DNA from: Flavobacteriales bacterium
GTDB lineage: Bacteria; Bacteroidota; Bacteroidia; Flavobacteriales_F; PHOS-HE28
Direction: 5' to 3'
DNA: 64,000 nucleotides
NCBI GenBank assembly: GCA_030584065.1
Contig: CP129489.1
Span: forward strand, 1,140,640-1,204,639
The notes beneath the pieces were generated by a model. That model worked only from the letters and a program-made list of their open reading frames with translations. It had not been told where the DNA came from and ran no database searches. The translations under genes and the position numbers were made by a program. This document shows, in pieces, positions 33,308-57,116 of the stretch (position 1 is the stretch's first letter; the number at the start of each line of letters is the position of its first letter).

Positions 33308-33589
33308 ATGAGCATCCAGCATCATCTTGAGGAAGCGCTACTGGAGGAGATCCAGAGCGAGACCGGTCCGATGCGCGAGATCATCCTGCACAACGATGAC
33401 GTGAATACCTTCGACCATGTCATCGCCTGCCTGGTGGAGATCTGCGGCCACGATCCGATACAGGCCGAGCAATGCGCCTGGATCGTGCACTACAACGGGA
33501 AGTGCAGCGTGAAGCGAGGCACCTTCGACCAGCTGGAACCGCAGTGCACCGCACTGCTCGATCGCGGCTTATCCGCCGACATCCAATGA
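33308..33589 (+). CDS. clpS: ATP-dependent Clp protease adaptor ClpS
   Basis: A 93-residue N-recognin that delivers N-degron substrates to ClpAP-type proteases. Key segments are REIILHNDDVNTFDHVIACL, whose NDDVNTFDHV forms the N-end binding pocket, and EQCAWIVHYNGKCSVKRGTF, equivalent to the conserved helix (A..V...G.A.v..g) contacting the ATPase. The Bacteroidota variant is shorter than the 106-residue E. coli protein at the N-terminus. Its stop overlaps the M48 gene start by ATGA. Confidence 0.93.
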   Translation: MSIQHHLEEALLEEIQSETGPMREIILHNDDVNTFDHVIACLVEICGHDPIQAEQCAWIVHYNGKCSVKRGTFDQLEPQCTALLDRGLSADIQ

Positions 33590-34392
33590 AGCAGACCATC
33601 CTCCGCGGAACAGCGATACTGGCGGCGGTCATCCTGGCCGAAGCCTGCGCCAAGGTGCCCATCACGGGCCGTCGCCAGCTCAACCTGGCCAATGAGAGCC
33701 AGCTGATGGCCATGTCGGTCACGGAGTACGACTCCTTCCTGAATGAGCATCCCGTGCTGGCCGACAACGACCCGAGGGCCCAATTGGTGAGCCGGGTAGG
33801 CCAGCGCCTGGCCGATGCCGCGACGAGGTTCCTGAATGAGAGCAACGCGGGCAACCGCGTGGAGGGATTCACCTGGTCCTTCAAGACGGTGGACGACCCC
33901 ACGGTGAACGCTTGGTGCATGCCGGGCGGCAAAGTGGTCGTGTACACCGGCATTCTTCCCGTGACGCAAGATGAGATCGGACTAGCCGTAGTGATGGGGC
34001 ATGAGGTCTCGCATGCCATTGCGCGCCACGGGAACGAGCGCATGAGCCAGGCCATCGCCATTCAAGGCGCGGGAATGACCTTGGAGGTCCTCACAGGAGA
34101 GAAGCCTTCGCTGGCGCGCGACCTCTTCCTGCAGAGCTTCGGCATCGGCAGCGCCTTGGGCATGCTCGCCTTCAGCCGCAAGCATGAGACGGAGGCTGAC
34201 AAGATGGGCTTGGTGTTCATGGCCATGGCCGGTTACGACCCGCGCGAGGCGCCCGGATTCTGGCAACGCATGAGCCAGCAGTCCGGAGGCCAGGCGCCTC
34301 CTGAATTCCTGAGCACGCACCCGAGCGATGCCACGCGCATGCGCGACCTGGAGGCCTACATGCCTGAGGCCCTCAAGTACTACAAGCCCTGA
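33586..34392 (+). CDS. M48-family zinc metalloprotease lipoprotein
   Basis: A 268-residue membrane-anchored peptidase of the Ste24/LoiP type. The signal LAAVILAEAC|AK is a lipobox. Residues 20-40 hold PITGRRQLNLANESQLM, typical of periplasmic M48 lipoproteins. VNAWCMPGGKVVVYTGIL is followed by the zinc site VMGHEVSHAIARH (HExxH) near residue 145, and by the third ligand Glu in SRKHETEADKMG. The C-terminal STHPSDATRMRDLEAYMP is also diagnostic. It probably degrades misfolded outer-membrane or periplasmic proteins. Its start is coupled to clpS, so two proteolysis genes share a transcript. Confidence 0.93.
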   Translation: MKQTILRGTAILAAVILAEACAKVPITGRRQLNLANESQLMAMSVTEYDSFLNEHPVLADNDPRAQLVSRVGQRLADAATRFLNESNAGNRVEGFTWSFKTVDDPTVNAWCMPGGKVVVYTGILPVTQDEIGLAVVMGHEVSHAIARHGNERMSQAIAIQGAGMTLEVLTGEKPSLARDLFLQSFGIGSALGMLAFSRKHETEADKMGLVFMAMAGYDPREAPGFWQRMSQQSGGQAPPEFLSTHPSDATRMRDLEAYMPEALKYYKP

Positions 34393-34420
34393 CCGCAGGG
34401 GCTTGGCATCGGCGGACGCC

Positions 34421-35155: not shown

Positions 35156-35186
35156 ACCATTCAATCCGAACGGTTGTCTATCTTCG
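35151..35186 (+). promoter_or_regulatory. candidate promoter (TTTG-N24-TATCTTCG) for tRNA-Arg
   Basis: TTTG at 35151-35154 and TATCTTCG at 35179-35186 (one mismatch). The box ends 13 bp before the tRNA 5' end, so transcription would begin almost at the tRNA. The spacer is slightly longer than usual. Confidence 0.45.
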
Positions 35187-35199
35187 CCCCCGCTTTTCA

Positions 35200-35273
35200 G
35201 GACCCGTAGCTCAATTGGATAGAGCATCTGACTACGGATCAGAAGGTTTGGGGTTCGAATCCCTACGGGTCCG
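35200..35273 (+). tRNA. tRNA-Arg (ACG anticodon)
   Basis: A 74-nt cloverleaf: acceptor GGACCCG/CGGGTCC, D stem GCTC/GAGC, anticodon stem TCTGA/TCAGA with loop CTACGGA (anticodon ACG, presumably inosine-modified to read CGN), T loop TTCGAAT, discriminator G, CCA not encoded. All stems pair well. It is followed eight bases later by a perfect terminator hairpin. Confidence 0.95.
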
Positions 35274-35280
35274 CAGAACG

Positions 35281-35306
35281 AACGAGGCGCCTTTGGGCGC
35301 CTCGTT
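35281..35306. terminator. intrinsic terminator after tRNA-Arg
   Basis: An 11-bp perfect stem, AACGAGGCGCC (35281-35291) and GGCGCCTCGTT (35296-35306), with a TTTG loop. It lies between the tRNA and the convergent DGQHR gene and is symmetric enough to serve both. Confidence 0.8.
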
Positions 35307-35326
35307 GCATTTCCACCGGCTGCCGG

Positions 35327-36430: not shown

Positions 36431-36453
36431 GGGTGGGCGGGTTGTCGCGCCCT

Positions 36454-36484
36454 CGAATGTACGCGGCTGAACGCGCTGCGACAA
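36454..36484 (-). promoter_or_regulatory. promoter (TTG-N20-TACATTCG) for the DGQHR gene
   Basis: On the minus strand TTG (36482-36484), 20 nt, then TACATTCG (36454-36461), one mismatch from TAnnTTTG, 23 bp before ATG 36430. It overlaps the 5' part of a longer in-frame reading, arguing against the upstream start. Confidence 0.55.
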
Positions 36485-36506
36485 GCGGCCCCCAGGGCCG
36501 CCTCCC

Positions 36507-39041: not shown

Positions 39042-39125
39042 GACGTTGCCTTGGCCAATTCCGGCAAAGGATGGCGAAGATACCGAAACGCAGCCTCTGG
39101 CAGCTGCCAACCGTCAGCTTGAGGG

Positions 39126-39908
39126 TCAGGCGCAGAGCACCGGAATAGCAGCCGGATTCGACAGGATGCGCTCCTTCTCGGCATCGGCGATGTAGCGATA
39201 CTCATCGGAGGCATGGGCCATGATGGCGATGCAACCGGCCCCGATGCGCTGCGCATAGTCGATGGTAGCCTTGGCGAAACCCATGCTGAACGAATTCATG
39301 GGCTCATTGGCCTCCACCTGGCGAATCCCCTCCTCTTCAAGCCGCTCGAACATGCGCACCTTATTCGCCAGGAGGACATCGCTGGGGGCCTCACCGGGCC
39401 GCATGAGCTGGAAGACATGCACTTCAGCAGCACAGGCCCGCGCCAACAGGCATACCGCATCCAGGAGCCTTCCGATGTCCTGGTGGCCCGCCACGGGGAG
39501 CACGATCCGGCAAAGCTCCCGGTCGACGGGGGAGCCTTCCTGGACCACGAAACAAGGCGTGGCGGCCTTTCTCACGAGCTTGAGGATGTCCGCGCCGAAC
39601 AGCTTCTGGCGAAGTCCGTGGGCGCCGTGGGTGCCCATCACCAACAAGCGATGCCCACGTGCGCTCTCCGCCACGATCTCCTCCATGAAATCACCCTCCG
39701 GCATGAGCAGCCGTACGGCCGCCCCCCCCAAGGCATCCACGGTTTGCTCGATGCTCTTCCGCACCTCATCCACGGAGCGCCGCTCTTCCTTGCCCACCAC
39801 ATGGAGCAGGCTCACGCGGGCGCCCAGGCGATCGCCCAAGGCCATGGCATGCTGAATGGCCACGGTGGAAGCGGCCGTTAGATCGGTGGTGCAGAGCAGA
39901 TCGGCCAT
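39126..39908 (-). CDS. universal stress protein with two tandem Usp domains
   Basis: A 260-residue cytoplasmic protein with two Usp folds. The first (residues 1-140) begins LLCTTDLTAASTVAIQHAMA and ends GHRLLVMGTHGAHGLRQKLF with a nucleotide-type glycine loop. The second (about 145-260) is more divergent: RIVLPVAGHQDIGRLLDAVC, GAGCIAIMAHASDEYRYIA, with no clear ATP motif. Tandem Usp proteins are typical of Bacteroidota. ATG 39908 begins right before the first strand; an ATG at 39950 would add 14 residues. It diverges from the choice-of-anchor B gene across a 148-bp gap with no perfect promoter box. Confidence 0.85.
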   Translation of the reverse strand: MADLLCTTDLTAASTVAIQHAMALGDRLGARVSLLHVVGKEERRSVDEVRKSIEQTVDALGGAAVRLLMPEGDFMEEIVAESARGHRLLVMGTHGAHGLRQKLFGADILKLVRKAATPCFVVQEGSPVDRELCRIVLPVAGHQDIGRLLDAVCLLARACAAEVHVFQLMRPGEAPSDVLLANKVRMFERLEEEGIRQVEANEPMNSFSMGFAKATIDYAQRIGAGCIAIMAHASDEYRYIADAEKERILSNPAAIPVLCA

Positions 39909-40056
39909 GGCGGACGGATTGGCCGGCAAGATACCGGGCAGGACCGTCATCCGCTCGTCGAACGGCTGCAAGCATTCATCGACTGGCTGGAATCGTGCCG
40001 CGGCATCCCGCCATGCGAAGGGCCTGCATGGTCTAATTTGGCCGGGTTCATCAACC

Positions 40057-42432: not shown

Positions 42433-42435
42433 GCA

Positions 42436-43407
42436 TCAGCGCTTCCGCGTGCCCTGCGAGGCGCAGTGCTCCTGCGCCAACCGGTCCACTTCGGGGATAT
42501 CCGCAAGTGCCCTCGCCAAGCTGAGGTCGTCGCAGGCCTTGGCACGGTCGCCCCTCCGGAGACGCAGGATTGCGCGAGTGCGCAGCGCATAGGGGTTGCT
42601 GGGGTAATTGCGCAGGCTGCGCTCAACGGTGGTCCACGCTTCATCGTCGCGCTCCAGCTTGGCCAATGCATACGCCTTGTGGCTCAAGGCCACCGGCTCG
42701 TCCGCATCGTAGCCCAAGGCCCGCTCCGTAATGGGCAATGCATCCTCGAATCGGCCCAGCATGTTCAATTCATGCGCCCTATTGGTCCAGTTGCCCAGGT
42801 CGGAGGGATCCATCTCGCACAGGCGCTCAAGCACCCGGAGCGCCTCCTCGTGCCGGCCCTCAACGTCATAGAGCTGCGCGAGGGTGCGCATAGCGGTCAC
42901 CTCCTCCAGCCCGCCGGCCCATGCAGCGGCCAGGTCCTCGATCGCAGCGGCGAACTGCTTGCGCTCCGCTCTCGCCTCGCCGCGCAGGTTGTGCGCCCTG
43001 GCCTTGGCCCGTGCGTCCCGGGCGAAGAGGATTGCCCGCGTGCCATGGAACTCGGCCCGATCCGAATCATTCACGCGCAATGCATATGCGCCACGCTGGT
43101 AATGCGCCTCTCCGGCGGTGCTATCGAGCCGGAGAGCCTTGTCGATATCCTCCACGAAACGGTCGTTGCGCTTGAGAGCGGAATAGGCGCGCGCCCTGGA
43201 GAGCAGGGTCCGAACGGATGTTTCCTTGCGGACCGCTTCGTCGAAAACGACCAGCGCCCGCTGGGGCTTGTCGGCGTCGAGAAGCGAATCGCCGCGCACC
43301 AGCAGGAGCTGTACGCTCTGGGCCCCTCCGTAGCCCGGCAGCAGCCACAGCAAGGCTGCGAACAATCCGCACATCATCGCCCCGCCAAGGCCGGCTTCCC
43401 TTTTCAT
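42436..43407 (-). CDS. exported TPR-repeat protein
   Basis: A 323-residue periplasmic protein. The signal segment (MMCGLFAALLWLLPGYGGAQS) is followed by about seven or eight TPR units, for example ALVVFDEAVRKETSVRTLLS, EAHYQRGAYALRVND and NPYALRTRAILRLRRGDRAK. TPR scaffolds mediate protein contacts; no partner is visible. ATG 43407 is supported by a perfect promoter box only 8 bp upstream, so the message has a very short leader. It stands just downstream of the giant coiled-coil gene, whose stop lies 50 bp before it on the same strand, but is transcribed from its own promoter. Confidence 0.8.
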   Translation of the reverse strand: MKREAGLGGAMMCGLFAALLWLLPGYGGAQSVQLLLVRGDSLLDADKPQRALVVFDEAVRKETSVRTLLSRARAYSALKRNDRFVEDIDKALRLDSTAGEAHYQRGAYALRVNDSDRAEFHGTRAILFARDARAKARAHNLRGEARAERKQFAAAIEDLAAAWAGGLEEVTAMRTLAQLYDVEGRHEEALRVLERLCEMDPSDLGNWTNRAHELNMLGRFEDALPITERALGYDADEPVALSHKAYALAKLERDDEAWTTVERSLRNYPSNPYALRTRAILRLRRGDRAKACDDLSLARALADIPEVDRLAQEHCASQGTRKR

Positions 43408-43415
43408 GCTGGCTC

Positions 43416-43423
43416 CAAAGGTA
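43416..43423 (-). promoter_or_regulatory. promoter -7 box (TACCTTTG) for the TPR gene
   Basis: A perfect TAnnTTTG on the minus strand, 8 bp before ATG 43407. No TTG lies at the proper -33 distance. Confidence 0.5.
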
Positions 43424-43457
43424 ACCGCGCGGCAAGACGGGGCCGAACCTGTCCTTG

Positions 43458-46400
43458 TCAAGGCTGCGCCAGGATGGAGGGCCCGAATCGCTCCAGGAGC
43501 AGCAACCCATCGCGTACCGGGATGCGCTTGCCGTTGAGGTAGGCGGTGACGAAGGCGTCCTTCACCCCCCGCGCAACAGCTTCGTCCTTGCGCTTGCGGG
43601 CCGACTCGTTATCCGGGTAGCGGCCGGTGGTGTACCGCACCTTCGCGGTCTCCGTCAGCTCGCTGTTGAGCGGCGTGATGTTGAACAAGCGATCGAGCGC
43701 GACGGGTTTGCTGTATACCCCCACCTGCACGGTGAAGAAGAGGCCCTTGATGGACTCCACCTGCGCGGCGGGCGCAGCACCGGGCACAGCATAATAGGCC
43801 CCAGCCTCGGCAGCGGGCGCAAAGCGGCCGATGAGCTCCTCCGCGGTGGCGGGATACTTGGAAAGGATGGTTGCAGCATCTGGCTCAGCGGCCGCAACAA
43901 TGGGCTGAACGGGGCGCTGAATGACCGCGGCCTGCGGAGGCTGCACCTGGGCAGGATCCGCCCGGCGGGGCTCCGGCTCCTCGGATGCGCGCGCTTGCGC
44001 CGTGGCGGCGTTAGGCGGCGCTGCGGCGGCGCGCATGGCTTCACCAAGGGGCACCCGTACGCCGTCCTTGTACGCGACGACAAATGCATCGCGGTATCCG
44101 CGTTCGCGAACGAGGTCCTTGGCGGCGGCGGCCCCATCGAAGCCCGTGAAGAGGCCAGCCGTGTAGCGCACGAGCCCGTTGCCGACCGACTCGCCCATCA
44201 CCGGGCTCATATCGGAGAAGGCCTCCTGCGGCACCGGCTTCCGGAAGGCGCCGATCTGCACCTTGAAGACGATTCCAGCAGGGAGCTCAGCATCGATCGG
44301 GATGGGTGCTTCCCGGCGCACGGGAGCCGGCTGTATCAGGAAGATGTCCTCCGCGAGCTCATCGGGCATCCGGAAGGGCAGCTCGGCCGTGGCGGTCGAT
44401 CGCGTCGCGGCAAGGGACGCCCGGTCATCGGCTCGCCCGGCGGCCCGTTCCGCGATAGCGGTTGTGTCCGCTGCCGCAACGCGGTCGGCGGAGGTCCTGT
44501 CGGGCTGCTGCACCACGCGCTCCGGGGCCACGGGGCGCTGCATGCGCAGGTCGCCCGCCGGCCGCTGGGGAGCTGCCTCGTTGCGCGACTCGGCCAGCAG
44601 GGGCTCCGTGCGCCGAACGCGCTGCTCGATCGCCATCAGTTCGCTGCTGCGCTGCGGCGGCATGCCCTGGAGCATCACCCCGGCCTGGCTCTCGTTGATG
44701 CCGGCAGCACCGCGCAGCCGTGAAGCGATGGTCTCCAGCGAATCGGCCTTCTGCTCCAAGGCAGCGGCCCGGAGATCCAGCTTGGCAGCCCGGTCGACCG
44801 CCTCGGTGGCGGTGAGCCGTCCGTCTCGTGCCTCCTGCTCGGCGGCGCGCGCCTGATTGCGGAGCACACCGGCCACATCGCGGTTGCTGCGAGCGGATAG
44901 CGAGGCGGCATCCGCGGCTTCATACTGTTCGAGTGCCCGCGCTTTGGCTTGGAAGTAGCGGCTGGCATCACCTTCCATCAGCACCATCTCCTGCTCCTCC
45001 GGCGTGAGGTAGTAGAACTTGACCAACCGCTCTCGCAAGGCTTTCGCGACCAGGGTCTCATCGCGCAGGCGCTCCAGCTCCTGCACCTGATCCACCAAGC
45101 GGTCCTTGGTTGACCGCAGCGAATCGGATAGCGCACGCTCACGCATGGCCAAGCGCTCGAGACGCTCCCGGTCGCGCTTGCGGGCCCCGGCAGCGCTGTC
45201 TGCGAACGCCGTGGCGCGGTCGGCGGCTTCCACGGAGCGCCGGTCCGCATCGACGGCTTCGCCCCTGGTGCGATCCACGCGGATGCTGAGCAGGTCAGTG
45301 TCCAATTCGGCGTCCTTGGCCGGAGCGGACAGAACGACCGGCTCGCTGGCGAGGTATCGCTCATACAGCTGCGCAGGCACCCGGGCCTCCGGCGTCAGCC
45401 TGCGTTCGGCCTGCTCAATCGCATCCTGAGCGCTGGCGGCTGGTGAAGACGGCGCCTTGTCCGCAGGGGTCGCGGCCTGGTCGGCGTTGCGGAAGTTGCC
45501 GGATCGGTCAGGCTCCTGTTCCTGGCCACCGCCTTCCCCACCGGGCGCTTCGCTGCGGGCCACCGCGCTATCCGTGCGCGCTGCACCATCGGGTGCCGGC
45601 GCATCCGGTTGAGCTCGCTGAGCCGCCCCCCCCTCGCCCCTCGCAACGGCCGATTGCGCCTCCAGCTGAACCCCGTCGGCTTGGCGCTCGCTTGATTCGG
45701 ATGGGCGCGCCGGCTCGTTTCCCGTGGCCAATACCATGGAAGGCGAGGCAGGTTCCTGGATGCCGAGCACGCGGGCTGCCACCTCTTCATAGGTCAGGCG
45801 CTCGCCCCGCTGATGGTCAGCGCCGGCCAGGTAGTTCTGTACCGTGATGGCCTTGTCCATGGCCAGCAGGGCCGCGAGCTCATCCCTGTATGCGCGCCGG
45901 TAGAGGCTGTCGCGCTGCACGATATCCTCGCTGCGGTCGGCGCGCTTGCGCAGCTGCTGGGCCGATTCGTACTGCTGGCGCGCTTCGATACCAAGCTCCT
46001 TGGCCATCTGGAGCAGGGGTTCATCCATCGGCAGCCCCCGGCCCGCCGCGGTCCCCTCCACCCGCTTCAGGCTGTCGTTGGCGGTCTTCCACTCCTCACG
46101 CATGAGGAAAGCGCTGCGCTGGCCCAGGTCGGTTCGGATGATGTAGCGTTCATCGATGAGCGCATCGGTCTTGCGGCGGAGCCGGTCGCTTTCCTTGCCC
46201 AGCGGCATGCCCGCCAGCAGGCCCTCCATGGAGTCAATGCGGCTGGTCAGATCCTCCATCCGGGCCAGGTCGGCATCGCGGAACGCAATCGCCTCGCTCA
46301 CTCCTTTGGCTGCGGAGCGATGCTCCACCTTGCTCGCGTAGACGTTGCGCGCATATCGGTCGATGACGATGAACCGATCGGAGGCCGATGCCCGCTGCAC

Positions 46401-49400
46401 GGGAGCGCTTTCGACCGTCGCCACGACGGGCGGCTGTTGCGGTCCGGCGCTCATGTCCCCGGAAGCGGCAATTTCCTGCTGCCGCTGGGCCAGCGCCTGT
46501 TCGCCAAGGGTCTGATGAGCCTCGCGGAGGCGACGCAGGCGATCCACCCGGGGCAGCACGGTCTCCGCTTGCTGGGGCGAGAGCTGCAGCACGGCTACCT
46601 GTCGTTGCATCTCGGCCCGCAGGCTGTCCGCAAGCATGGACTCCACACCGTTGATCGCATCGGCACGGGCATCGGCATCGGCAAGGCGCGCGGCCCGGTC
46701 CAAATCAGCGGAATAGGCGGGGTACACCAGGGCGATGACCTCCTGATCCGATGCGGAGCCGCTGAAAGCAATCGCCGGCTTGCTCAGATCGACCTCTCCC
46801 ACCGCCTCGAGGGCATCGGCAGTGAGGGTATCCCGCTCGGCCGCGTCCCTAGCGCGGTCGATGGCCAGGATGCGCTCATCGACGGCGCGCATGCGCGCTT
46901 GCAGGCTGTCCTTCCGCAGCCGACTGCGCTCCGCCTGTTCCAGTTGAGCGAGTTCCGCCCGTTCGTTCTCGAGCACGAACCGCTCCTTCTCCTCATCCGG
47001 GGCGGCCGCGTTCACCCGCTGCTCAGCAACCATGGTACGGCCTTGACCCGCTGCTTCGATACGGCCTGCAGCCTGCTCGGGAATGCCCGCACGCTCCTGC
47101 TCCACCCGTGCGGCCGGTTGCGCAACCGCTTGGTCGAATTGCGCGGCCGTCCGAACCTCCGGAGACACCTCCTCCCGTCCGCCGGACATCGGCGCCTGAG
47201 CCACCTCCGCCCGCTCCGTGGTGCGCACCCCCACGGCGGGTGCTTGGATGGCTATCGGGCGTGCATCGGCCTGCTGCGGGGACGGCTCGTCGCCGCTCTC
47301 CATGGCGCGCGTAACGCTGCGGGCACCGCCGATCGCCTGTGCTGCGGAGGCGAGGTCCCAGTCGAAGCTGCGGGCCTCCATTCGCTCGGCCTCAACGGCC
47401 AGCTGGGCATCGTAACGCTCATCTATGGCCAGCGCATTGAGGCGCTGATCGGTGCCGGAGATGCGAAGGCCGAGCTCCTGCGCCTGATCGGCACTGAGTT
47501 CGGTGCCGGCGCCGCGGTCCGTGACCTGGGCGAGGTGCCGTGTAAGGGAGGCCTGCCCGCGCAGCACAGCCGTCTGGCGCTCTGCGGCCGTGGCCTTGTT
47601 CACCGCGGCTTCCGTCTCCTTGCGCTGGTAGGCCAGCTGCTGCTCCAGCTCGGTGATCTCGCGAACGATCTCGTCCTTGCGGCTGCGGGCGCGCGTTTCG
47701 TCGCGCTCGCGCTTCAAGCGGGCGATGCGGTCGGCCAGCTCGCCCTCCTCCTCCCGCTTTGACCGCGCGATGCCCATCAGGCGCGATGCATCCTTCTCCT
47801 GCTCGGCCAGCGCCCTGCGGGCCTGCTCCACCGGATCGCTCGCGGCATCGGGCTTGCTCTTCTCGTCGAGGCGCTGCCGAAGGGTGCGCAAGTGACCCAG
47901 GGCAGCCTCATCCTGCCGGGCAGCAAGGGTCGCTGAAAGGTCATCGGCCAGCTTGGCCGCCGCCAAGGACTTCTGCCGGGTATTCATGGCCATGGTGCTG
48001 AGCGATTGCCCGGCATTGAATGCTGCCCGCGCGCGCAATGTGGCTTCTCGCGAGCGCTGGCGCTCACGGGCCGCCTCCGTCATCCGCTCATTGCGCGCCC
48101 CCTCGTCCAAGCCCGCGCCTGTGGCCGCCTTCACGAGCCGATCGGCCTGTTCTGCGGCCCGCTCCGCCTCGTTGGCCGCATCCACCGACAAGGCGAAGGC
48201 CTCGGCCGCCTGCGCTTCCTGGTCGAGCGCCTCCGCTTCCAGCTCCTTGGCGTCCTCCTTGGCCAGCCGCTGGGCCGCAGCCTGGTCGATGTCGCCCGTG
48301 AAGCCGGCGCGGGTCATGATGTCACGGGCCGGCTCCTGGGCAGTTTCGGCCTCGGCCACGAGCGGCTCGCGGCTGCTGACGTCGAGCCGGGCGCGCCGCT
48401 TGATCTCCTCCAGCGAGAGGGCCACCAGATCATCGTTGAGCGGCTCATCGAAGTAGTTGCGGATCGTCAGCTGCTCAAGGTCGCCCTTCCGGTCAAGGAC
48501 GAGTTCCTGGCGATAGGCGCGCGGCCCGTCCGTCTTGGGTACTTCCACGATGCCGCCATGCGTCTTGCCGGATGGGCCGCATTCCACGCGGTAGCGGTAC
48601 TTGCCGGCGCGCGGAACGCTCAGCACATAGCTGCCGTTGATGTCCGTTACGGCCTCAGCTACGCGCTCTTGGGTGAGTGCGTCCTCCACAGTGATGCTCG
48701 CCTTGCGGTCCTGAGGGTCGATGGTGCTGGCGAAGGTGCCCTTGAAGACGCTGATGACCACCGGCAGCTGGGCCGTGGACACGCGGTAAACATGGAGCAT
48801 GCCCTGCTTGCTGTTGCGTCCGCTGGCGAAGCAGGCCTCCTTCTGCTCCCCGTCAACGATGTAGAAGATGTCATCGTCGGGCGTGCTCACCGCGAAGTCG
48901 AGGTTCTCGGGCCTTCCGAAGGCATCGAGCCCCCGGTCGTAGCTGGCGCGGAACACATCGTACCCCCCCATGCTGTTATGGCCTTTGCTGCTGAAGTAGA
49001 AGGTCTTCCCGTTCGGATGCATGAAGGGGAAGTCCTCATCCTGGTCGGTGTTGATGTATCCGGCCAGTTTCACAGGCGTGGCGAAGGTGCCGTCAGGAAG
49101 GAGCTCGGTGCGGTAGATGTCGCGGCCCGTGGCGCCATCCTTGCCATAGCTGCTGAAATAGATGGGGCCCGGCCGTTCGGGCAGGTAGATTACGGAGCGC
49201 TCCTTGCGCTTCTTGTCCAGCGAGGACTTCAGCTCCTCCGGGAGCACCACGATCTTGCCTCCGATATCGGCCAGGTCATAGAACCGGAAGAAGTCGGCAT
49301 CGGCCACCTCCACCTTGCTGCGCACGGTGATCTCCTTGAGGCTGCTGAGCAGGCGTTCGCCATTGCGGCATTGCTTCTGAAGGGCCTCCACGGGCCATGC

Positions 49401-49784
49401 CGCGATGGCCTTCTTCTCGGCGGTGCCGAGGAAGCGCTGGTAGGCAACTTGGGCCTCCTTGAACCGGTAGTTGAGGTGGTAGGCCCGCCCCAGCCAGTAC
49501 CAGGCCATGGGGTCGGTACCAGGCGCCTCGGTGGCGAACTTCAGGTGGCCTACGGCCTGCTCCTTGTCAGCGCTGCCGTGCAGCAGGCATGCGCCGAAGC
49601 GGAAGTTGAGGTCGCGGTCGGACGGCCGCAGGCTGACGAGCTGGGAATAATGCGGCATGGCCTCGGCGAACCGCTGCTCGGCGAAGAGCTGGTCGGCCTT
49701 GGCACGCAGCTGCTGGTCGCCGCCCTGGCCAAGGGCCAGGAGCGGGAGGAGCAAGCCGGTAAATATGCCCGTGGAACGGGTCAT
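43458..49784 (-). CDS. giant TPR-PD40-CarboxypepD_reg-like coiled-coil envelope protein with two SPOR-like domains
   Basis: A 2,108-residue exported protein. The signal peptide (STGIFTGLLLPLLALGQ) is followed by TPRs at about 22-160, a PD40/WD40-like propeller near 215-345 (IYFSSYGKDGATGRDIY, GKTFYFSSKGHNSMGGYDVF), and a CarboxypepD_reg-like domain at about 355-430. This order resembles PorE, a T9SS-associated protein that ends in an OmpA domain. Here OmpA is missing. Instead about 1,350 residues (roughly 460-1,800) are Ala/Glu/Arg/Gln-rich coiled coil. Two SPOR-like domains follow, near 1,835-1,915 (FKVQIGAFRKPVPQEAF) and 2,012-2,108 (FTVQVGVYSKPVALDRLF). SPOR domains bind denuded peptidoglycan, so a wall-bound periplasmic filament or spacer is inferred. 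ATG 49784 gives a clean signal peptide. Confidence 0.75.
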   Translation of the reverse strand: MTRSTGIFTGLLLPLLALGQGGDQQLRAKADQLFAEQRFAEAMPHYSQLVSLRPSDRDLNFRFGACLLHGSADKEQAVGHLKFATEAPGTDPMAWYWLGRAYHLNYRFKEAQVAYQRFLGTAEKKAIAAWPVEALQKQCRNGERLLSSLKEITVRSKVEVADADFFRFYDLADIGGKIVVLPEELKSSLDKKRKERSVIYLPERPGPIYFSSYGKDGATGRDIYRTELLPDGTFATPVKLAGYINTDQDEDFPFMHPNGKTFYFSSKGHNSMGGYDVFRASYDRGLDAFGRPENLDFAVSTPDDDIFYIVDGEQKEACFASGRNSKQGMLHVYRVSTAQLPVVISVFKGTFASTIDPQDRKASITVEDALTQERVAEAVTDINGSYVLSVPRAGKYRYRVECGPSGKTHGGIVEVPKTDGPRAYRQELVLDRKGDLEQLTIRNYFDEPLNDDLVALSLEEIKRRARLDVSSREPLVAEAETAQEPARDIMTRAGFTGDIDQAAAQRLAKEDAKELEAEALDQEAQAAEAFALSVDAANEAERAAEQADRLVKAATGAGLDEGARNERMTEAARERQRSREATLRARAAFNAGQSLSTMAMNTRQKSLAAAKLADDLSATLAARQDEAALGHLRTLRQRLDEKSKPDAASDPVEQARRALAEQEKDASRLMGIARSKREEEGELADRIARLKRERDETRARSRKDEIVREITELEQQLAYQRKETEAAVNKATAAERQTAVLRGQASLTRHLAQVTDRGAGTELSADQAQELGLRISGTDQRLNALAIDERYDAQLAVEAERMEARSFDWDLASAAQAIGGARSVTRAMESGDEPSPQQADARPIAIQAPAVGVRTTERAEVAQAPMSGGREEVSPEVRTAAQFDQAVAQPAARVEQERAGIPEQAAGRIEAAGQGRTMVAEQRVNAAAPDEEKERFVLENERAELAQLEQAERSRLRKDSLQARMRAVDERILAIDRARDAAERDTLTADALEAVGEVDLSKPAIAFSGSASDQEVIALVYPAYSADLDRAARLADADARADAINGVESMLADSLRAEMQRQVAVLQLSPQQAETVLPRVDRLRRLREAHQTLGEQALAQRQQEIAASGDMSAGPQQPPVVATVESAPVQRASASDRFIVIDRYARNVYASKVEHRSAAKGVSEAIAFRDADLARMEDLTSRIDSMEGLLAGMPLGKESDRLRRKTDALIDERYIIRTDLGQRSAFLMREEWKTANDSLKRVEGTAAGRGLPMDEPLLQMAKELGIEARQQYESAQQLRKRADRSEDIVQRDSLYRRAYRDELAALLAMDKAITVQNYLAGADHQRGERLTYEEVAARVLGIQEPASPSMVLATGNEPARPSESSERQADGVQLEAQSAVARGEGGAAQRAQPDAPAPDGAARTDSAVARSEAPGGEGGGQEQEPDRSGNFRNADQAATPADKAPSSPAASAQDAIEQAERRLTPEARVPAQLYERYLASEPVVLSAPAKDAELDTDLLSIRVDRTRGEAVDADRRSVEAADRATAFADSAAGARKRDRERLERLAMRERALSDSLRSTKDRLVDQVQELERLRDETLVAKALRERLVKFYYLTPEEQEMVLMEGDASRYFQAKARALEQYEAADAASLSARSNRDVAGVLRNQARAAEQEARDGRLTATEAVDRAAKLDLRAAALEQKADSLETIASRLRGAAGINESQAGVMLQGMPPQRSSELMAIEQRVRRTEPLLAESRNEAAPQRPAGDLRMQRPVAPERVVQQPDRTSADRVAAADTTAIAERAAGRADDRASLAATRSTATAELPFRMPDELAEDIFLIQPAPVRREAPIPIDAELPAGIVFKVQIGAFRKPVPQEAFSDMSPVMGESVGNGLVRYTAGLFTGFDGAAAAKDLVRERGYRDAFVVAYKDGVRVPLGEAMRAAAAPPNAATAQARASEEPEPRRADPAQVQPPQAAVIQRPVQPIVAAAEPDAATILSKYPATAEELIGRFAPAAEAGAYYAVPGAAPAAQVESIKGLFFTVQVGVYSKPVALDRLFNITPLNSELTETAKVRYTTGRYPDNESARKRKDEAVARGVKDAFVTAYLNGKRIPVRDGLLLLERFGPSILAQP

Positions 49785-49828: not shown

Positions 49829-50479
49829 TCACCGGGGTCTGCCGCTCCTGCCGGCGAGGCTAAGGCGATTCTCCTCGCCTCGCAGGAGCCGCCCGATGTT
49901 CTCACGGTGCGTGTAGAAGACCAGCACGCAGAGCACGATGGCGAACCCGACCTTGATGGGGCTGGGCTCGCGGAATACGACGGCCACCGCCAGGGGGAAC
50001 GCCGCGGCCGCCGCCAGCGAGCTGAGCGAGACGTACCGCGACAGCAGGAATACGACCGCGAAAACGGCCACGCAGATGCCTGCCGCGCCGGGATGCACGG
50101 CCAGCACACCTCCCAATGAGGTGGCCACGCCCTTACCACCTCTGAAGCCGGCCAGCACTGGATACAGGTGCCCGACCACCGCCGCTAGCACCAAGGCCAC
50201 CCGGAACCACATCCAAGGCGCGGTATCGGGCTGAAGGTCAGTGAGGTTGGGCAGCAGGCGTACCGGCAGGAAGCCCTTGAGCACGTCGATAAGCAGCACC
50301 GGGATGGCCGCCTGGGGGCCGAGTACGCGGAAGGTGTTGGTGGCGCCTGCGTTACGGCTCCCATGCTCACGCACGTCGACACCGAAGAGGGCCTTGCCCC
50401 ACCACACGCTGGTGGGCACGCTGCCGCAGAGGTAGGCGATGACCATCGCGAAGCTGCCGTACACCCAAGGGAAGTCCAT
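49829..50479 (-). CDS. plsY: glycerol-3-phosphate acyltransferase PlsY
   Basis: A 216-residue inner-membrane enzyme acylating glycerol 3-phosphate from acyl-phosphate, the first step of phospholipid synthesis. Family motifs are IAYLCGSVPTSVWWGKAL, VREHGSRNAGATNTFRVLG, LLIDVLKGFLPV, VGHLYPVLAGFRGGKGVATS and YTHRENIGRLLRGEENRL. Seven hydrophobic segments fit the known topology. It lies between the two very large envelope genes, 3 bp after the stop of the 1,493-residue gene and 44 bp before the giant gene, so lipid synthesis is transcribed with them. Confidence 0.96.
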   Translation of the reverse strand: MDFPWVYGSFAMVIAYLCGSVPTSVWWGKALFGVDVREHGSRNAGATNTFRVLGPQAAIPVLLIDVLKGFLPVRLLPNLTDLQPDTAPWMWFRVALVLAAVVGHLYPVLAGFRGGKGVATSLGGVLAVHPGAAGICVAVFAVVFLLSRYVSLSSLAAAAAFPLAVAVVFREPSPIKVGFAIVLCVLVFYTHRENIGRLLRGEENRLSLAGRSGRPR

Positions 50480-50482
50480 GGT

Positions 50483-53400
50483 TCAGAGCCCGAAGCGGTC
50501 GCGGAAGTCGTCCACCTTCTTCTTGTTGGTGAGGATGTACTGGTAGTCCGCCTCGTCCTTGCCGCCGGCGAGCTTCCGCTTGTCATCCTTCACCTCGGAG
50601 AGCATGGTGTTGAACTGCTGGTCGCTGCTGTAGGCGTAAAGGTAGTTCCGCGCGTACTGGAAGAAGTAGTAGGTCTGGTCGTCGAGTTGGAGGAAGATGG
50701 TCATGATGTCGCCGCTCCGCTTGCGCTCGATGTGGACCTTCCCCTTCACCATGCGGTAGACGGGCTTCTTCATGATGGTGGCGATGCCGATGGGGCCATC
50801 GCTGACCCAGCTCTGTTCCGGGCCATCCCAGCGAAGCTTGACGTCGCCCAGGACGATGGGCTTCACCAGCTCATCCGGCAGCTTCTTGATCTCGCCTTTG
50901 ATGCTGAGCTCGCTGATGAGCTTATCCGAGCGCTCCAGGCCGAGTACCTGGCGCATCATGCGCTCGTAGTAGGTCTTGCCGATGTCGAGGGCCTGCTGGT
51001 CGGGATAAGCAGTGATCTCTGCGGCCATGCGCTCCAAGGCGTTCTCGAGGAAGTGGAAGTCGGCCAGGAGCACGCCGTTGCCGAAGGCCTTCTGGCCGCT
51101 GGTCTCGTAGCGCATGGCGCCGACCTGCGACAGCTTCACGCGGCCGAGGTCGACCCCGAAGGCGATGGGACCATCGGCCATCACCACGCAAGGCTCCACA
51201 GCCAGGCTCACCAGGGCGCCAGGCAGGTCGCGCTGGCGGATCTTGTCCTTGTTGGAGATGACATACTCCTTGCGGCCCTTGTCGAAGAAGAGCAGGCCGC
51301 TGGCAGTGATGATGTTGCGGTCGTCCTTGCTCCGGGTGCGGCTGAGGAAGGTGCCGTAGGTGCTGAACGGATCCTCGTCGGTTAGGTGGATACCGGCGCC
51401 GATGCGCGCTCCCTGATCGTCGAAGAGGGTGTCGCCCACGGGGATGAAGACCTCCAACGGGTCGATGGGGCCGGTGAAGCGCATCCAGTTGCGCGCAAGG
51501 CCCTCGCAGCCGTGCTGGATGCGCGTGCTCCCGGAGAAGCTCAGCTCCTTCACGCTGGCGGTGAGGTGCACATCGCCGAAGAAGTCGAAGGCCGGGCTCA
51601 GCTGGAAGTCCTGCTCCTCGGCGATCCGGCCCACTGCGCGGGTCTGGAAGGCCGTGTCGACGCCGATGCTGAAGAGCTTGATGGGGAAGGCCTTCTTGTT
51701 CTCGTCCACATAATCGATGGTGCCGGTGGCGGAGTAGCTGCGCTTGGCCTTGATGGTGGCCGTGGCATCGTAGATGCGGTGGAAGCGGGTGACGAAGTTG
51801 GCCGTGATGACGGTGCGCTCGAGGGGATCCATGACAGCGTTCTTGCGGATGCGCACGCGCATGCTGTCCGGGGTGATCAGCGCGTCGGCCACCTGGATGT
51901 ACTGGACATCGTTGGCGGTGATCAGATGCTTCTTCAGGTCGTAGCGCGCCTTCGGGGCCATGAAGCTGAGGCTGTCCTGGTCGGGACGGATGCTGATGAA
52001 GTTGGAGCCCGAGAGCTGCAGGTCCTCCGCCCCTTCCGCTGCCGTGCGGTCGCTCTCCAGTTCGAGGTCGCCCTGGTCCATGTACCACTTGAAGCGGTCC
52101 ATGTAGCAGATGTACTGGTTCACGGGGAACTCCACCTTGGTCTCGCTGCCGTTGCTCACGAACTCGCCGACCCGCTCATCGAGCTTCACCGTGGCGTTCA
52201 CGTTGTCGGTCTTGAAGGCGATGCTGGCCGTATCCCCCTCGGTGAGGCGGAAGTCGGAGGTATCGGCATGCAACTGCATGGTCTGGAACTGGAACAGGTC
52301 CGATCGGAGGGTCGCATTTCGGAAATCGATGAGGCCTGCCCCGGTCATACCGGCTGGCGTGAGGTCGGTGCTTCCGTGGAGCAGGGCCTGGTCGTCGTAC
52401 AGCACCATGGGGCGCTTCAGCTTCTGCACGTGCAGCAGGTCCTTGGCGGGCTCCAGGCGCACGAACACGCCGCCTGCGCTGACGTGCGGCACCATGCTGG
52501 GCTTGGTGGCCGCGACGTTCTCCAAGGTGTCCGCTCGCCCAAGGGTGCTGTCAGGGGTGAAGATGAGCTGCTTGCTGCTCAAGCGGGTGGTGAGGTACCC
52601 GAGGTCGCCGTTGCCCTGCAGCCCCCTGCCGTTGAGCGCAATGGTGCTGGTGAACTGGGCCTTGCGGCCGTAGAGCGGCATGCCGGCCTCGCCGGTGGCG
52701 CGCACGAATCCGAGTGCATAGTCGGGCTGAAGGCGGATGGGCTCGCGGATATCCGGGAAGATGCCAGCGCTGACCAGCGTGCCGGTGAAGGTGAGGCCGG
52801 CATTGGTGAAGTTGTCCAGCGAATCGATCTGGAAGGGGTCGCTGCGGTAGTAGAAGCGGTCGCGGCCGTATGCTCCGCGCTGGATGCTGCGCTTGTCGTA
52901 GTACACATAGCTCTCCCGGGCGCTGTTGAACTTGGGGAATTCGGGGTACCGCTCCTGCTGCCGCCCGCTCTTGTTGCTGGGCGCATCGATCTCCAGGGTG
53001 CCGCTCACCTGCTCCAGCACGTTCTTCACCCGCACCAGGGTGTGCTCGCCCCGGTCGTTCGGCTCGAAGCTGGTGGCCATGAACGAGACGCTGTCCACAT
53101 TGATGAGGTCGATGGTGAAGGGGTCGTAGTGGAAGTAGTACTCCTTGCCGTAGTACTGCAGCCGTCCGGCCTTGATGCTTCCGCCGAAGGTGAAGTCGCG
53201 GTTCTTCTTGATGGTGATCGCTCTGCCCGAGGGATAGATCCGCACATCCTGGGAGTCGCTCATGAGGATGGTGCTCACCCCCTGCATGGTGAGGTCGTTG
53301 TTCAGCAGGTTCAGCGTGGCGTTCACCCCGTCGTCCACCGAGCTGTTGAACTGGATGGCATCGTAATCCTGCTTGCCCGCGCTGTTGAGGATGTGCTGGC

Positions 53401-54964
53401 GCAGCCGGGGCTGCACCTCCACCCACTCCGTCTCGGGGTCGTACAGCAGGTAGCCCTTGTTGGCCATGTCGATGAGCAGGGGCACCACGCTCTGCTTCTG
53501 CATGCGGCTGAAGACGGCGAATTCCTGTGCGTAGAAGCGGCCCCCGTTCTGCTTGCTGAAGTCGTTGAGGCGCACGAGCGGATGCACGTTGTCGATCCCC
53601 AGCATGCCCATGTAGCGCTTCTCACGGAAGTAGTCGAAGCTCTCGAAGCTGGCCTTGTTCTGGGTGGTGCCACTGAGGTTGCCGATCTGCAGCACGGGAT
53701 CGCCTTGCTTCCAGGTGAGCACCTCGAAATACATGTCGAGCCGGTGGTAGGTATTGTAGAAGGGGGCCTTGCCCAGGCCTTCGTCCTTCTTGATCAGGGA
53801 GAGCTGCTTCTTGTCGCGTAGGAAGCGCAGGCTGGTGCTCTGGTGGTGGATGGAGTCCTTGTCGAGGCGCACGCGCACGGCCACTTCATCGCTGGTGATC
53901 CGCTCCGGCTCAATGCTGTAGCGCAGGCCGCTGGTGACGATGAAAGGACGCTTGTCCCGGTAGAAGGTGAGGTAGGCCGGCTCGTCCTTGGTGCCGTAGC
54001 CCTGGAGCTTGGCGCCCTGCATGCTGAAACCGCCCTCGAAGTCGATGCCCTCAACGATGTCGCGGATCTTCATGCGGCGATCGTAGCTCTCGAATCGCGG
54101 GTAGGCGGCGCTGCCCTCATCCACGTTCGCCAGCACCTTGTCGCTGAGCTTGCCGAGCAGGGTGCGCTCGAAGTAGGGGTCGTTGAACTGCACGGAGTCG
54201 ACCTCGAAGGCGGCACTCTTCATCCGGACGGTATAGGGGTGCGCCCACTCCGCGAAGGTGGCGGTGGGCTTGAGCCCTGCGCGCTCCCAGGTGACCCGTC
54301 CGCCGTCGCCCAACCAGGTCTCGGTGGTGGGCAGGAAGGTGCCCTTGGTCTGGAGGATCACGGCGCTATCGCCCTTGGCCAGGCAGACCAGGTCGGTGCC
54401 CGGAAAGGAGATCTTGGGCACGCTGTCGAAGGTGAAGGCGAAGACCTTGCTCCGCGCGCGCCAGGTGGTGCTGGGGCTGCTCACCAGGGCACCTTCGCGG
54501 AAAAGACCGGCGCAGGTGGCGATGAAGGCCTGGACACTCTGCTTGCGCGCGCCCTGCACGAGCTTCTCCATCCCTTGCAGCCACGCATCGAACTCCGCCG
54601 GCTGACGGCCTGTGGCGGGGAAGGCCGCCACGCAGGACAGGTAGTCGCGGAACCCCGGGAACGCCTCGAAGCGCTTCTTGAGCATGAAGTTGGCCACCTC
54701 CGTCACCCGCACCCGCTGCCGCTCGCTGTAGTACCCCCCGTTCCAGGCGGGAGCGAAGACCTGCTCGATGAACGGGCGGGCCTCCTTCTTGTCCGCCTCC
54801 GTCAGGAAGGCCGTGACTTCCTGGAGGAAGAGGGCCTGATCGGAGGAGAATGGCTTCTGCTGGGCCTGCGCCGTGCGCGGGAGGAGCACCATGGCCAGCA
54901 CGGGCAGCAGGGAACGCAGGTACCGATGGCCTGCAGAGAGCGTGTTCAGATGGGTGTGCGTCAT
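50483..54964 (-). CDS. large exported protein of unknown function (1,493 residues)
   Basis: A secreted or periplasmic protein with a signal peptide (SLLPVLAMVLLPRTAQA, about residue 38). I do not recognise its family. It opens with a helical region of about 200 residues (SDQALFLQEVTAFLTEADKK). The rest is a long succession of beta strands with recurrent aromatic/charged hairpins, for example YYFHYDPFTIDLINVDSVSF and FYYRSDPFQIDSLDNFTNAG. These recall stacked jelly-roll repeats of LptA/OstA or AsmA-like bridges, but this is only a resemblance. No C-terminal T9SS tail, barrel signature or transmembrane helix is visible. Its start overlaps prmA's stop (ATGA), and plsY follows 3 bp later. Confidence 0.6.
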   Translation of the reverse strand: MTHTHLNTLSAGHRYLRSLLPVLAMVLLPRTAQAQQKPFSSDQALFLQEVTAFLTEADKKEARPFIEQVFAPAWNGGYYSERQRVRVTEVANFMLKKRFEAFPGFRDYLSCVAAFPATGRQPAEFDAWLQGMEKLVQGARKQSVQAFIATCAGLFREGALVSSPSTTWRARSKVFAFTFDSVPKISFPGTDLVCLAKGDSAVILQTKGTFLPTTETWLGDGGRVTWERAGLKPTATFAEWAHPYTVRMKSAAFEVDSVQFNDPYFERTLLGKLSDKVLANVDEGSAAYPRFESYDRRMKIRDIVEGIDFEGGFSMQGAKLQGYGTKDEPAYLTFYRDKRPFIVTSGLRYSIEPERITSDEVAVRVRLDKDSIHHQSTSLRFLRDKKQLSLIKKDEGLGKAPFYNTYHRLDMYFEVLTWKQGDPVLQIGNLSGTTQNKASFESFDYFREKRYMGMLGIDNVHPLVRLNDFSKQNGGRFYAQEFAVFSRMQKQSVVPLLIDMANKGYLLYDPETEWVEVQPRLRQHILNSAGKQDYDAIQFNSSVDDGVNATLNLLNNDLTMQGVSTILMSDSQDVRIYPSGRAITIKKNRDFTFGGSIKAGRLQYYGKEYYFHYDPFTIDLINVDSVSFMATSFEPNDRGEHTLVRVKNVLEQVSGTLEIDAPSNKSGRQQERYPEFPKFNSARESYVYYDKRSIQRGAYGRDRFYYRSDPFQIDSLDNFTNAGLTFTGTLVSAGIFPDIREPIRLQPDYALGFVRATGEAGMPLYGRKAQFTSTIALNGRGLQGNGDLGYLTTRLSSKQLIFTPDSTLGRADTLENVAATKPSMVPHVSAGGVFVRLEPAKDLLHVQKLKRPMVLYDDQALLHGSTDLTPAGMTGAGLIDFRNATLRSDLFQFQTMQLHADTSDFRLTEGDTASIAFKTDNVNATVKLDERVGEFVSNGSETKVEFPVNQYICYMDRFKWYMDQGDLELESDRTAAEGAEDLQLSGSNFISIRPDQDSLSFMAPKARYDLKKHLITANDVQYIQVADALITPDSMRVRIRKNAVMDPLERTVITANFVTRFHRIYDATATIKAKRSYSATGTIDYVDENKKAFPIKLFSIGVDTAFQTRAVGRIAEEQDFQLSPAFDFFGDVHLTASVKELSFSGSTRIQHGCEGLARNWMRFTGPIDPLEVFIPVGDTLFDDQGARIGAGIHLTDEDPFSTYGTFLSRTRSKDDRNIITASGLLFFDKGRKEYVISNKDKIRQRDLPGALVSLAVEPCVVMADGPIAFGVDLGRVKLSQVGAMRYETSGQKAFGNGVLLADFHFLENALERMAAEITAYPDQQALDIGKTYYERMMRQVLGLERSDKLISELSIKGEIKKLPDELVKPIVLGDVKLRWDGPEQSWVSDGPIGIATIMKKPVYRMVKGKVHIERKRSGDIMTIFLQLDDQTYYFFQYARNYLYAYSSDQQFNTMLSEVKDDKRKLAGGKDEADYQYILTNKKKVDDFRDRFGL

Positions 54965-55815
54965 GGCTTGCGGCATCCGAGCAGCGCCCAATCGCCTTCC
55001 TGCAGGCGCTCGGCAAGATCCAAGCCGCAGGCCTTCGCGCGCTGCGCCAGCATGTGCCGGTCGCCGGGCACGAAGCCGCTGAGGAACAGCACCCCACCGG
55101 GATTGAGCGCGGCGGCCATCACCGGCATGGCATCGAGCAGGACGTTGCGTTCGATGTTGGCCAAAATAGCGTCGAAGGCCAGGCCGCGCAGGCTTTCCGC
55201 ATCGCCCTTTTCCACAGTGATGGCATGACAACCATTGAGCACGGCATTGTGGCGCGCATTGTCCACGGCGCCCGGGTCGTTATCGATGGCCAGCACGCGC
55301 TGGGCCCCCATGCGCTCGGCCAGGATGGCGAGCACCCCGGTTCCGCACCCCAGGTCGCAGACCGCCCTGCCGGCCAGGTCGTGATCGAGCATGGCCTGCA
55401 CCATCATGCGCGTGGTGGCATGGTGACCGGTGCCGAAGGCCATGCGAGGCGTGATCACCAGCTCGTGCTCGAATCCGGGGCGGCTGGGGTGGAAATCGGC
55501 GCGGATCCTGACCCGGTCGCCCACTTCCACCGCCTGGAAGCTGCTCTCCCACTCGGCGTTCCAATTGCGGTCGGCGATCTCCTCGGCGCCCCAGGAAATG
55601 GAAGCGTGCGGATCGCGCAGGCTGAGCAGCTCCCGGAGCGCCCGCTCATCGAACCGGTCGCTGCGGATGTAGGCCTTCAGTTCGCCGCTGCCTCCCATCG
55701 GGTCCGTGAAGCCCTCCTCGAAGCTGTCGAATCCGATGTCCGCGAGCTCCGCGGCGAGCAGGTCGCGCCAAGGCGCCACCGGGGCGATGAGGAAAGTGAC
55801 CTGGGTATATGGCAC
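54961..55815 (-). CDS. prmA: ribosomal protein L11 methyltransferase
   Basis: A SAM-dependent methyltransferase trimethylating L11. The 284-residue protein has an N-terminal substrate domain (VTFLIAPVAPWRDLLAAELA, FDSFEEGFTD), a linker with WNAEWESSFQ, then the catalytic Rossmann domain: VITPRMAFGTGHHATTRMMV, VCDLGCGTGVLAILAERMGA, IDNDPGAVDNARHNAVLNG and FDAILANIERNVLLD, which holds the NPPF-like active-site segment. No ATG precedes the first strand, so GTG 55815 is the best start, 30 bp after the ligase-like gene's stop. The longer frame to 56235 overlaps that gene and looks non-coding. Confidence 0.92.
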   Translation of the reverse strand: MPYTQVTFLIAPVAPWRDLLAAELADIGFDSFEEGFTDPMGGSGELKAYIRSDRFDERALRELLSLRDPHASISWGAEEIADRNWNAEWESSFQAVEVGDRVRIRADFHPSRPGFEHELVITPRMAFGTGHHATTRMMVQAMLDHDLAGRAVCDLGCGTGVLAILAERMGAQRVLAIDNDPGAVDNARHNAVLNGCHAITVEKGDAESLRGLAFDAILANIERNVLLDAMPVMAAALNPGGVLFLSGFVPGDRHMLAQRAKACGLDLAERLQEGDWALLGCRKP

Positions 55816-55844
55816 GGCGGTTCGATTCGGTCCGGGGCCAAAGG

Positions 55845-57116
55845 TCAGGCGCGACCGCCGCCTTCCGACGGGACAGAATGCCCCTTCAGCGAGAGCAGGC
55901 CGAGGAAGGCACCCACCAGGGCCACCCCGGCCTGCACCTCCAGCACGGATTCCACCGCAGCCCCGGTGAGCAGCAGGAGTGCGAAGCCGGCCAGCAGCAA
56001 GGACCGCCGCCGGAAGCCCTGTGCCAAGGGCACCAGAGGTATCAGCAGAGCGAGCAGCAGGCCCGGCCAGCCGAGGGCCACTCCCCCCTGCAGGAATTGG
56101 GAATGGCTGTTGAGGCGCCGCTCCATGGCCGGAACCGCTTTCTTCGAAGCATAGCAGGCGACCAGGGCCTCCTTGATGTCGCCCGTGCCGGCGCCGAAAG
56201 GGGCGCCTTGCAGGCATTCCGTGCTGCAGATCCAAGCCACCATCCGCATCTCGCTTCCGCCCTCCGAGGCATAGATCGCGGCATCACCCGACCGTGCCAA
56301 GCGAACCGCGGCCACCGCGCTGAAGGCCCGCTCCGCCAGCGTCCCCCCTCCTATCACCAGCCCACCGCCCATGGCGAGCGCCGCAGCACCGAGGATGGCC
56401 CACCGCATGGCGGACCGCAACGTGAGCACCGCCTGGGTCAACAGGATGAGCGCCACCGCCGCCAGCGCCACGGCACCGCTACGGCTCCCGAGCATGAAGG
56501 CGAAGGCGAGGAGGATCGGCAGGTGCGCCAGTGCGGCTGAGCGGAGCCAGGGCTGCCGCACCCGGCCCGCGATCAGCTCATGGCCCCAATACAGGATGGC
56601 CCAGCTGGCATACCACGCCGCATAGCTCGGGTGCAGCTCGAAGGAGAGGGCGCTCTGCGTGAAGCAGGCGGCATTGCCCGATGCCGCGTAGCATGCGGCT
56701 GCCTTCCAGCTGCTCAGCCCTATGGCAACGGCCAGACCGGCGGAAAAGGCAATCATGCTTTCGCGCAGGGCCCCGGGCCGGCCGGCGCCCAGCACGCCAG
56801 CCGCGAGGGGCAGCAGGATCAGCCCCAGCTTGATCTGAAGGTCGAAGAGCCCGAACTGCCAGTCGGCGGTCCACGCCATGCCAAGCACGTGCAGCGCGTA
56901 GAAGGCGGCCAGCGGCCACGGCAGGCTCCACCGCATGCTTCGCCCGGACCACAGGCCCTGGGCCAGTAGCAGTGCGACAGCAGCCACCAAGGGCACCGGC
57001 ACCAGCCTCCCGCTGATGGGCATCACGAAACAGAGGACCAGCCACGCCCATCGGCCCAGCCCGCCGATCCGGGAAGGCAGGCGGCCTTCGCCAATTGCCG
57101 GGTCCGTCGCGCTCAC
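55845..57116 (-). CDS. O-antigen ligase/polymerase-like membrane protein
   Basis: A 423-residue polytopic membrane protein with about 10-12 hydrophobic helices and a longer extracytoplasmic loop in its second half (GGSEMRMVAWICSTECLQG, MERRLNSHSQFLQGGVALGW). This is the Wzy_C/WaaL arrangement, where RLNSHSQFLQ fits the conserved periplasmic H-x-x-x/Arg region. Such enzymes ligate or polymerise lipid-linked O-antigen repeats. No ATG fits, so GTG 57116 is chosen. It is divergent from the Wzm/Wzt cluster, supporting a shared role in glycan assembly. Its 3' end is 29 bp before prmA. Confidence 0.75.
   Translation of the reverse strand: MSATDPAIGEGRLPSRIGGLGRWAWLVLCFVMPISGRLVPVPLVAAVALLLAQGLWSGRSMRWSLPWPLAAFYALHVLGMAWTADWQFGLFDLQIKLGLILLPLAAGVLGAGRPGALRESMIAFSAGLAVAIGLSSWKAAACYAASGNAACFTQSALSFELHPSYAAWYASWAILYWGHELIAGRVRQPWLRSAALAHLPILLAFAFMLGSRSGAVALAAVALILLTQAVLTLRSAMRWAILGAAALAMGGGLVIGGGTLAERAFSAVAAVRLARSGDAAIYASEGGSEMRMVAWICSTECLQGAPFGAGTGDIKEALVACYASKKAVPAMERRLNSHSQFLQGGVALGWPGLLLALLIPLVPLAQGFRRRSLLLAGFALLLLTGAAVESVLEVQAGVALVGAFLGLLSLKGHSVPSEGGGRA

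Follow-up and report, generated by a model that had tools for sequence, protein, structure and literature searches.

The described system closest to the protein reported here is PorE, which bridges the cell wall and the outer-membrane barrel PorP, binding PorP (PMC9143113). A second point of reference is the SPOR domain; in that of RlpA, Q270 and R309 touch the glycan through their side chains (PMC6895207). A gene in a 64,000-nucleotide stretch of a Flavobacteriales genome (contig CP129489.1, positions 1,140,640 to 1,204,639; this whole stretch is referred to as the window) joins a PorE-type head, familiar from type IX secretion, to SPOR domains, familiar from cell division. The resulting protein is very large, and the combination is kept across more than 30 families.

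The open reading frame occupies exactly 49784..43458 of the minus strand, where the original prediction had placed the gene, and its start is backed by orthologues. It is a real gene, because 32 of the 33 genomes searched within its order carry an orthologue with the full N-terminal region. No curated Pfam or NCBIfam family spans the full length of the 2108-residue product. A hydrophobic stretch followed by a conserved Q points to a signal peptide, and the protein is probably secreted. PorE is classed as an outer-membrane lipoprotein; no lipobox was found in the giant, in 23 of 25 listed sequences or in the genome's own PorE-like protein. The features of the protein, with the evidence for each in brackets, are as follows.

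43458..49784, minus strand: giant PorE-like/SPOR protein P0001, 2108 aa (translation and orthologues)
49725..49784, minus strand: putative N-terminal signal peptide, residues 1-20, without a lipobox cysteine (sequence)
49347..49724, minus strand: TPR domain, residues 21-146 (profiles in orthologues, model, fold match)
48726..49325, minus strand: PD40 beta-propeller-type region, residues 154-353 (profiles, model)
48438..48701, minus strand: CRD (carboxypeptidase-regulatory-like) beta-sandwich, residues 362-449 (profiles, model)
47511..48284, minus strand: helical module 1, residues 501-758 (model, conservation)
46464..47117, minus strand: helical module 2, about residues 890-1107 (conservation and composition only)
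45765..46217, minus strand: helical module 3, about residues 1190-1340 (conservation only)
45288..45764, minus strand: variable Pro/Gly-rich linker, residues 1341-1499 (conservation)
44616..45284, minus strand: helical module 4, residues 1501-1723, hairpins (model, structure matches, conservation)
44022..44291, minus strand: SPOR domain 1, residues 1832-1921, with Q1843, F1847 and R1873 (profiles, model, conserved residues)
43473..43760, minus strand: SPOR domain 2, residues 2009-2104, with Q2020 and R2050 (profiles, model, conserved residues)

The PorE-like order of TPR, PD40 and CarboxypepD_reg-like domains that had been read from the window is borne out by orthologue profiles and by a structure model. 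Profile searches found PD40 in 22 of 22 orthologues, TPR in most and CarboxypepD_reg in 10 of 22, and AlphaFold places helices at residues 21-146, propeller-type strands at 154-353 and a beta-sandwich at 362-449. The TPR fold aligns with solved TPRs at a Z of about 15 (VIA-align), and a Foldseek search with the N-terminal model gave firm matches for the TPR only; within this domain, Cys66 and Cys139 recur in each of the 25 listed orthologues. The NCBIfam PorE model NF052230 matches residues 208-374 at 1.4e-25, with 89.7 bits against a curated cut-off of 600 bits, and the N-terminus matches the genome's own PorE-like protein at 7e-16. Judged by these sequence matches, the N-terminus is homologous to PorE. 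The OmpA domain is missing, as predicted, with no PF00691 match at E<=1, and the OmpA_C-like peptidoglycan-binding domain of PorE was not found at the C-terminus, an end that is occupied by SPOR domains.

The two C-terminal domains, originally described as SPOR-like, are true SPOR domains by their PF05036 matches, a profile match to CwlC, the AlphaFold model and the conserved Gln and Arg. Of 23 orthologues, 21 give a PF05036 match at E<=1, the best one at 1.8e-15, and 18 of 19 single SPOR domains do so at E<=0.1. The window protein alone scores 16-19 bits, under the 21-bit cut-off, which is why simple annotation misses these domains. A profile of the family's SPOR domains finds the solved CwlC SPOR structure 1x60 with an E of 2.3e-5, and in the AlphaFold model both domains have the RNP-like order strand-helix-strand-strand-helix-strand, with pLDDT >90 over most of their length. 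Helical matches filled the list of a fold search with the C-terminal model, so the SPOR assignment is based on the profiles, the secondary structure and the conserved residues. All 40 first SPOR domains and all 40 second ones have Q and R at the positions matching RlpA Q270 and R309, in orthologues picked for at least two SPOR hits and with the equivalence of R set through profile alignment to CwlC. Orthologues usually have three SPOR domains where the window protein has two, and the third domain, found in most other families, keeps the Gln in 20 of 24 cases and the Arg in only one of 24. Furthermore, orthologues from two families (L047:5995-10620 and L049:5475-9023) keep the head and have a degenerate C-terminal domain without VQxGxF, the former also carrying KEA-rich TolA-like repeats; on this comparison of sequences, wall binding is not universal in the family. 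Four other frames of the source genome match the SPOR profile (G000:C1 2719263, 2646523, 1617942 and 395303), three of them above the cut-off.

Between head and SPOR domains, the original prediction had seen a coiled coil of about 1,350 residues rich in Ala, Glu, Arg and Gln. The composition bias stands; the single coiled coil is not supported, the modelled parts being hairpins. There are four helical blocks, set apart by Pro/Gly-rich linkers (residues about 800-890, 1110-1180, 1340-1500 and 1735-1830) that are variable, differing in sequence and length among relatives and being rich in Asn, Ser and Thr in another family. The structure models of this middle region cover residues 501-758 and 1501-1723. 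In them, helices of ~45-60 residues are joined by turns of 3-8 residues into antiparallel hairpins; for instance, AlphaFold gives module 1 the helices 501-555/561-621 and 651-696/700-758, with short turns between, and two pieces of the modelled middle superpose on solved antiparallel hairpins with an rmsd of 0.9-1.2 A. Profiles of the modules compared with one another gave similarity that is weak and marginal only, and for this reason internal duplication is not claimed.

This organization bears on the proposal that a single, very long coiled coil spans a distance or polymerises into a wall-attached periplasmic filament. The protein's length and its Ala/Glu/Arg/Gln bias would suit a filament, as would the KEA-rich repeats of the L047 relative, which could make long single helices, and a longer helix is possible in residues 760-1500, a part outside the models. 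Against this, no 60-residue window within residues 441-1850 has heptad periodicity beyond that of shuffled sequences (smallest p about 0.1), the modelled helices form hairpins with short turns, and the linkers are variable, with lengths unlike between relatives. A filament built from a continuous coiled coil is thus very improbable, and the single-coil reading gives way to one of helical hairpins on variable linkers.

The protein is one of a widespread orthologous family that extends beyond the source genome. Searched across the class with a protein query, the N-terminal region gave matches at 1e-45 or better in 134 of 296 sampled genomes, spanning about 33 families, one or two of which may hold paralogues only; most full matches sit in frames of 1200-2600 aa. 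An earlier phylum-wide scan, limited to five candidates per genome and to few relevant families, had given at least two genomes and is superseded by the class-wide scan. Within its own order, the giant is present in all 33 genomes searched, the one without the full N-terminal region (G010) giving a partial match only, in an assembly where several frames end at contig ends. Some other families, as at L075:2531-5536, have an extra protein of ~1,000 aa with two tandem PorE-like heads (TPR-PD40-CRD) and no recognisable OmpA or SPOR, which at that locus adjoins a putative outer-membrane beta-barrel gene (judged by eye from the translation).

The homology of the head raises the question of type IX secretion, for which PorE is required. 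The best PorE-like protein of the source genome (529 bits) keeps TPR, PD40, CRD and OmpA, and this genome also encodes several further PD40-OmpA paralogues. Since the genome still has this OmpA-bearing protein, the giant is no substitute for PorE; on sequence grounds it is a PorE paralogue with another C-terminal end. The earlier description of a PorE-like protein with a different wall-binding end therefore holds as regards SPOR in the place of OmpA, with the addition that a separate, OmpA-bearing PorE has been kept. SprA, the translocon of the system, is present in 21 of 21 giant-bearing genomes tested, and 17 of the 19 that count as giant-negative at 1e-45 have it as well; for seven of these negatives all candidates were scored, and the best matches lay far under orthologue level. 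As giant-bearing and giant-negative genomes have SprA about equally often, a role as a core component of secretion is not supported. It is possible that the giant is an accessory of type IX secretion or gliding that uses SPOR, and not OmpA, to anchor a PorP/SprF-like barrel to the wall. Its head is homologous to that of PorE, PorE binds PorP (PMC9143113), and every giant-bearing genome tested has SprA; yet SprA is just as much a feature of the giant-negative genomes, the genome already has an OmpA-bearing PorE-like protein and further PD40-OmpA paralogues, and no porP/sprF-like gene was seen beside the giant, whose neighbours are plsY, M48, nfeD and floA. Such an accessory role is unlikely.

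The neighbours themselves form a conserved set, represented in the window by four genes.

54961..56235, minus strand: PrmA (ribosomal protein L11 methyltransferase), which opens the conserved run; ORF taken as listed
50483..54964, minus strand: conserved secreted protein P0002, about 1,500 aa, likely start ATG 54964
49829..50479, minus strand: PlsY, glycerol-3-phosphate acyltransferase, conserved neighbour directly upstream of the giant
33472..34392, plus strand: M48 metallopeptidase, which in relatives directly follows the giant and in the window is displaced and inverted

PrmA, the 1,500-aa protein and PlsY are transcribed in the same direction as the giant, with gaps of a few bases or overlaps among the three, and this upstream run is conserved with the giant across families. 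P0002 has a signal peptide and gave no Pfam or NCBIfam match. A frequent order is PrmA, the 1,500-aa protein, PlsY, the giant, the M48 protease, NfeD and the flotillin FloA. Among 28 loci outside the genus, PlsY is next upstream in 12, M48 next downstream in 11, NfeD and FloA are present in 9, and 8 have none of the usual neighbours. The M48 gene lies 9 kb from the giant in the window and is adjacent to it in the 13 other loci of the genus compared. Between the two (34400-43460) are DGQHR/DndB-like, FG-GAP with a type IX secretion tail, Usp, LVIVD/CarboxypepD and TPR genes, which look like a rearrangement or insertion. The DGQHR-domain protein (35327-36484, minus strand; TIGR03187, 8e-36) is near a tRNA-Arg gene (35200-35274), and its family is linked to DNA modification systems. 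Elsewhere in the window, positions 17576-17674 hold a tandem repeat whose units (AAGGCAGCC..) code for Lys and Ala; it may be the Lys/Ala-rich tail of a histone-like protein.

An operon with PlsY, the 1,500-aa protein, M48, NfeD and FloA suggests a link to outer-membrane or envelope assembly. The M48 family includes envelope quality-control proteases, and on one reading of the locus the giant would serve outer-membrane biogenesis or quality control as a scaffold, acting together with the 1,500-aa protein and the M48 protease, while SPOR would only park it on the wall. The conservation of operon order across families, and of the 1,500-aa neighbour along with the giant, is consistent with such a scaffold, to which we give a low probability, as the case is made from operon proximity only and the neighbour has no recognisable family.

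The reading that we favour, with about an even chance of being right, is that the giant is a periplasmic scaffold through which a partner in the outer membrane or in envelope assembly is tethered or recruited to peptidoglycan that is denuded and probably septal. The PorE-like head (TPR, PD40 and CRD) would bind a protein partner as PorE binds PorP, and this partner would probably lie at or near the outer membrane. The helical hairpins, strung on flexible linkers, would act as a spacer and lend the protein reach and flexibility. Glycan strands without their peptide stems would be held by the tandem SPOR domains, two or three in number. Denuded glycan is enriched at the division septum in studied bacteria, and because of this the giant would most likely do its tethering or recruiting at constricting or remodelled wall; a septal localisation would follow by analogy with SPOR biology in Proteobacteria.

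Several observations argue against a tether. The operon includes the housekeeping gene prmA, and the usual neighbours are missing from 8 of the 28 loci outside the genus. Where a third SPOR domain occurs, it is without the Arg in 23 of 24 cases, and the L047 and L049 families keep the N-terminus with a degenerate C-terminal domain. The window protein has no lipobox, which makes direct attachment to the outer membrane putative.

A bolder form of the tether is possible, though rather unlikely. The giant would then act at the division site throughout the class, as a tether not described before, joining the outer membrane or the machinery that assembles it to denuded glycan of the septum. It would share its operon with PlsY (phospholipid synthesis), another giant secreted protein, an M48 protease and flotillin, and would work alongside other outer-membrane constriction systems or replace them. 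In either form, the protein is a concrete candidate for linking the outer membrane or its assembly to the growing or dividing wall, and its conserved operon draws attention to a second large protein without an assigned family, the 1,500-aa P0002.

Literature on SPOR together with PorE-like, PD40 or Bacteroidota proteins yielded no description of this architecture, and the portions consulted of the work on Flavobacterium BAM subunits and gliding tracks contained no match to it. In the literature searched the giant is uncharacterised; it is two familiar modules in a new, conserved arrangement, as comparison with known systems makes clear. With PorE (PG1058; NF052230) it shares the order TPR, beta-propeller, CRD, homology over residues 208-374 and a C-terminal end predicted to bind the wall. 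It differs in having two or three SPOR domains instead of OmpA, a shorter PD40 propeller region, about 1,000-1,300 added residues of helical hairpins and linkers, other gene neighbours and, in the window, no lipobox. The SPOR fold and the conserved glycan-binding Gln and Arg are shared with FtsN, DamX, RlpA and CwlC (PF05036), whereas in the giant the SPOR domains stand in tandem at the end of a very large secreted protein with a PorE-like head and with no recognised transmembrane anchor or enzyme domain. The OmpA-like outer-membrane integrity proteins of the CHU_0125 family (NF053607) have a related PD40 region (6e-23), but are of ordinary size and bind the wall through OmpA. Finally, the SlpA/OmpM connectors of deep-branching bacteria (PMC9388160) also have a periplasmic spacer, long and helical, that links a wall-binding domain to the outer membrane, and would do the same job in principle, homology with the giant not being claimed; they do so with a trimeric coiled coil, an SLH domain and a beta-barrel of their own.
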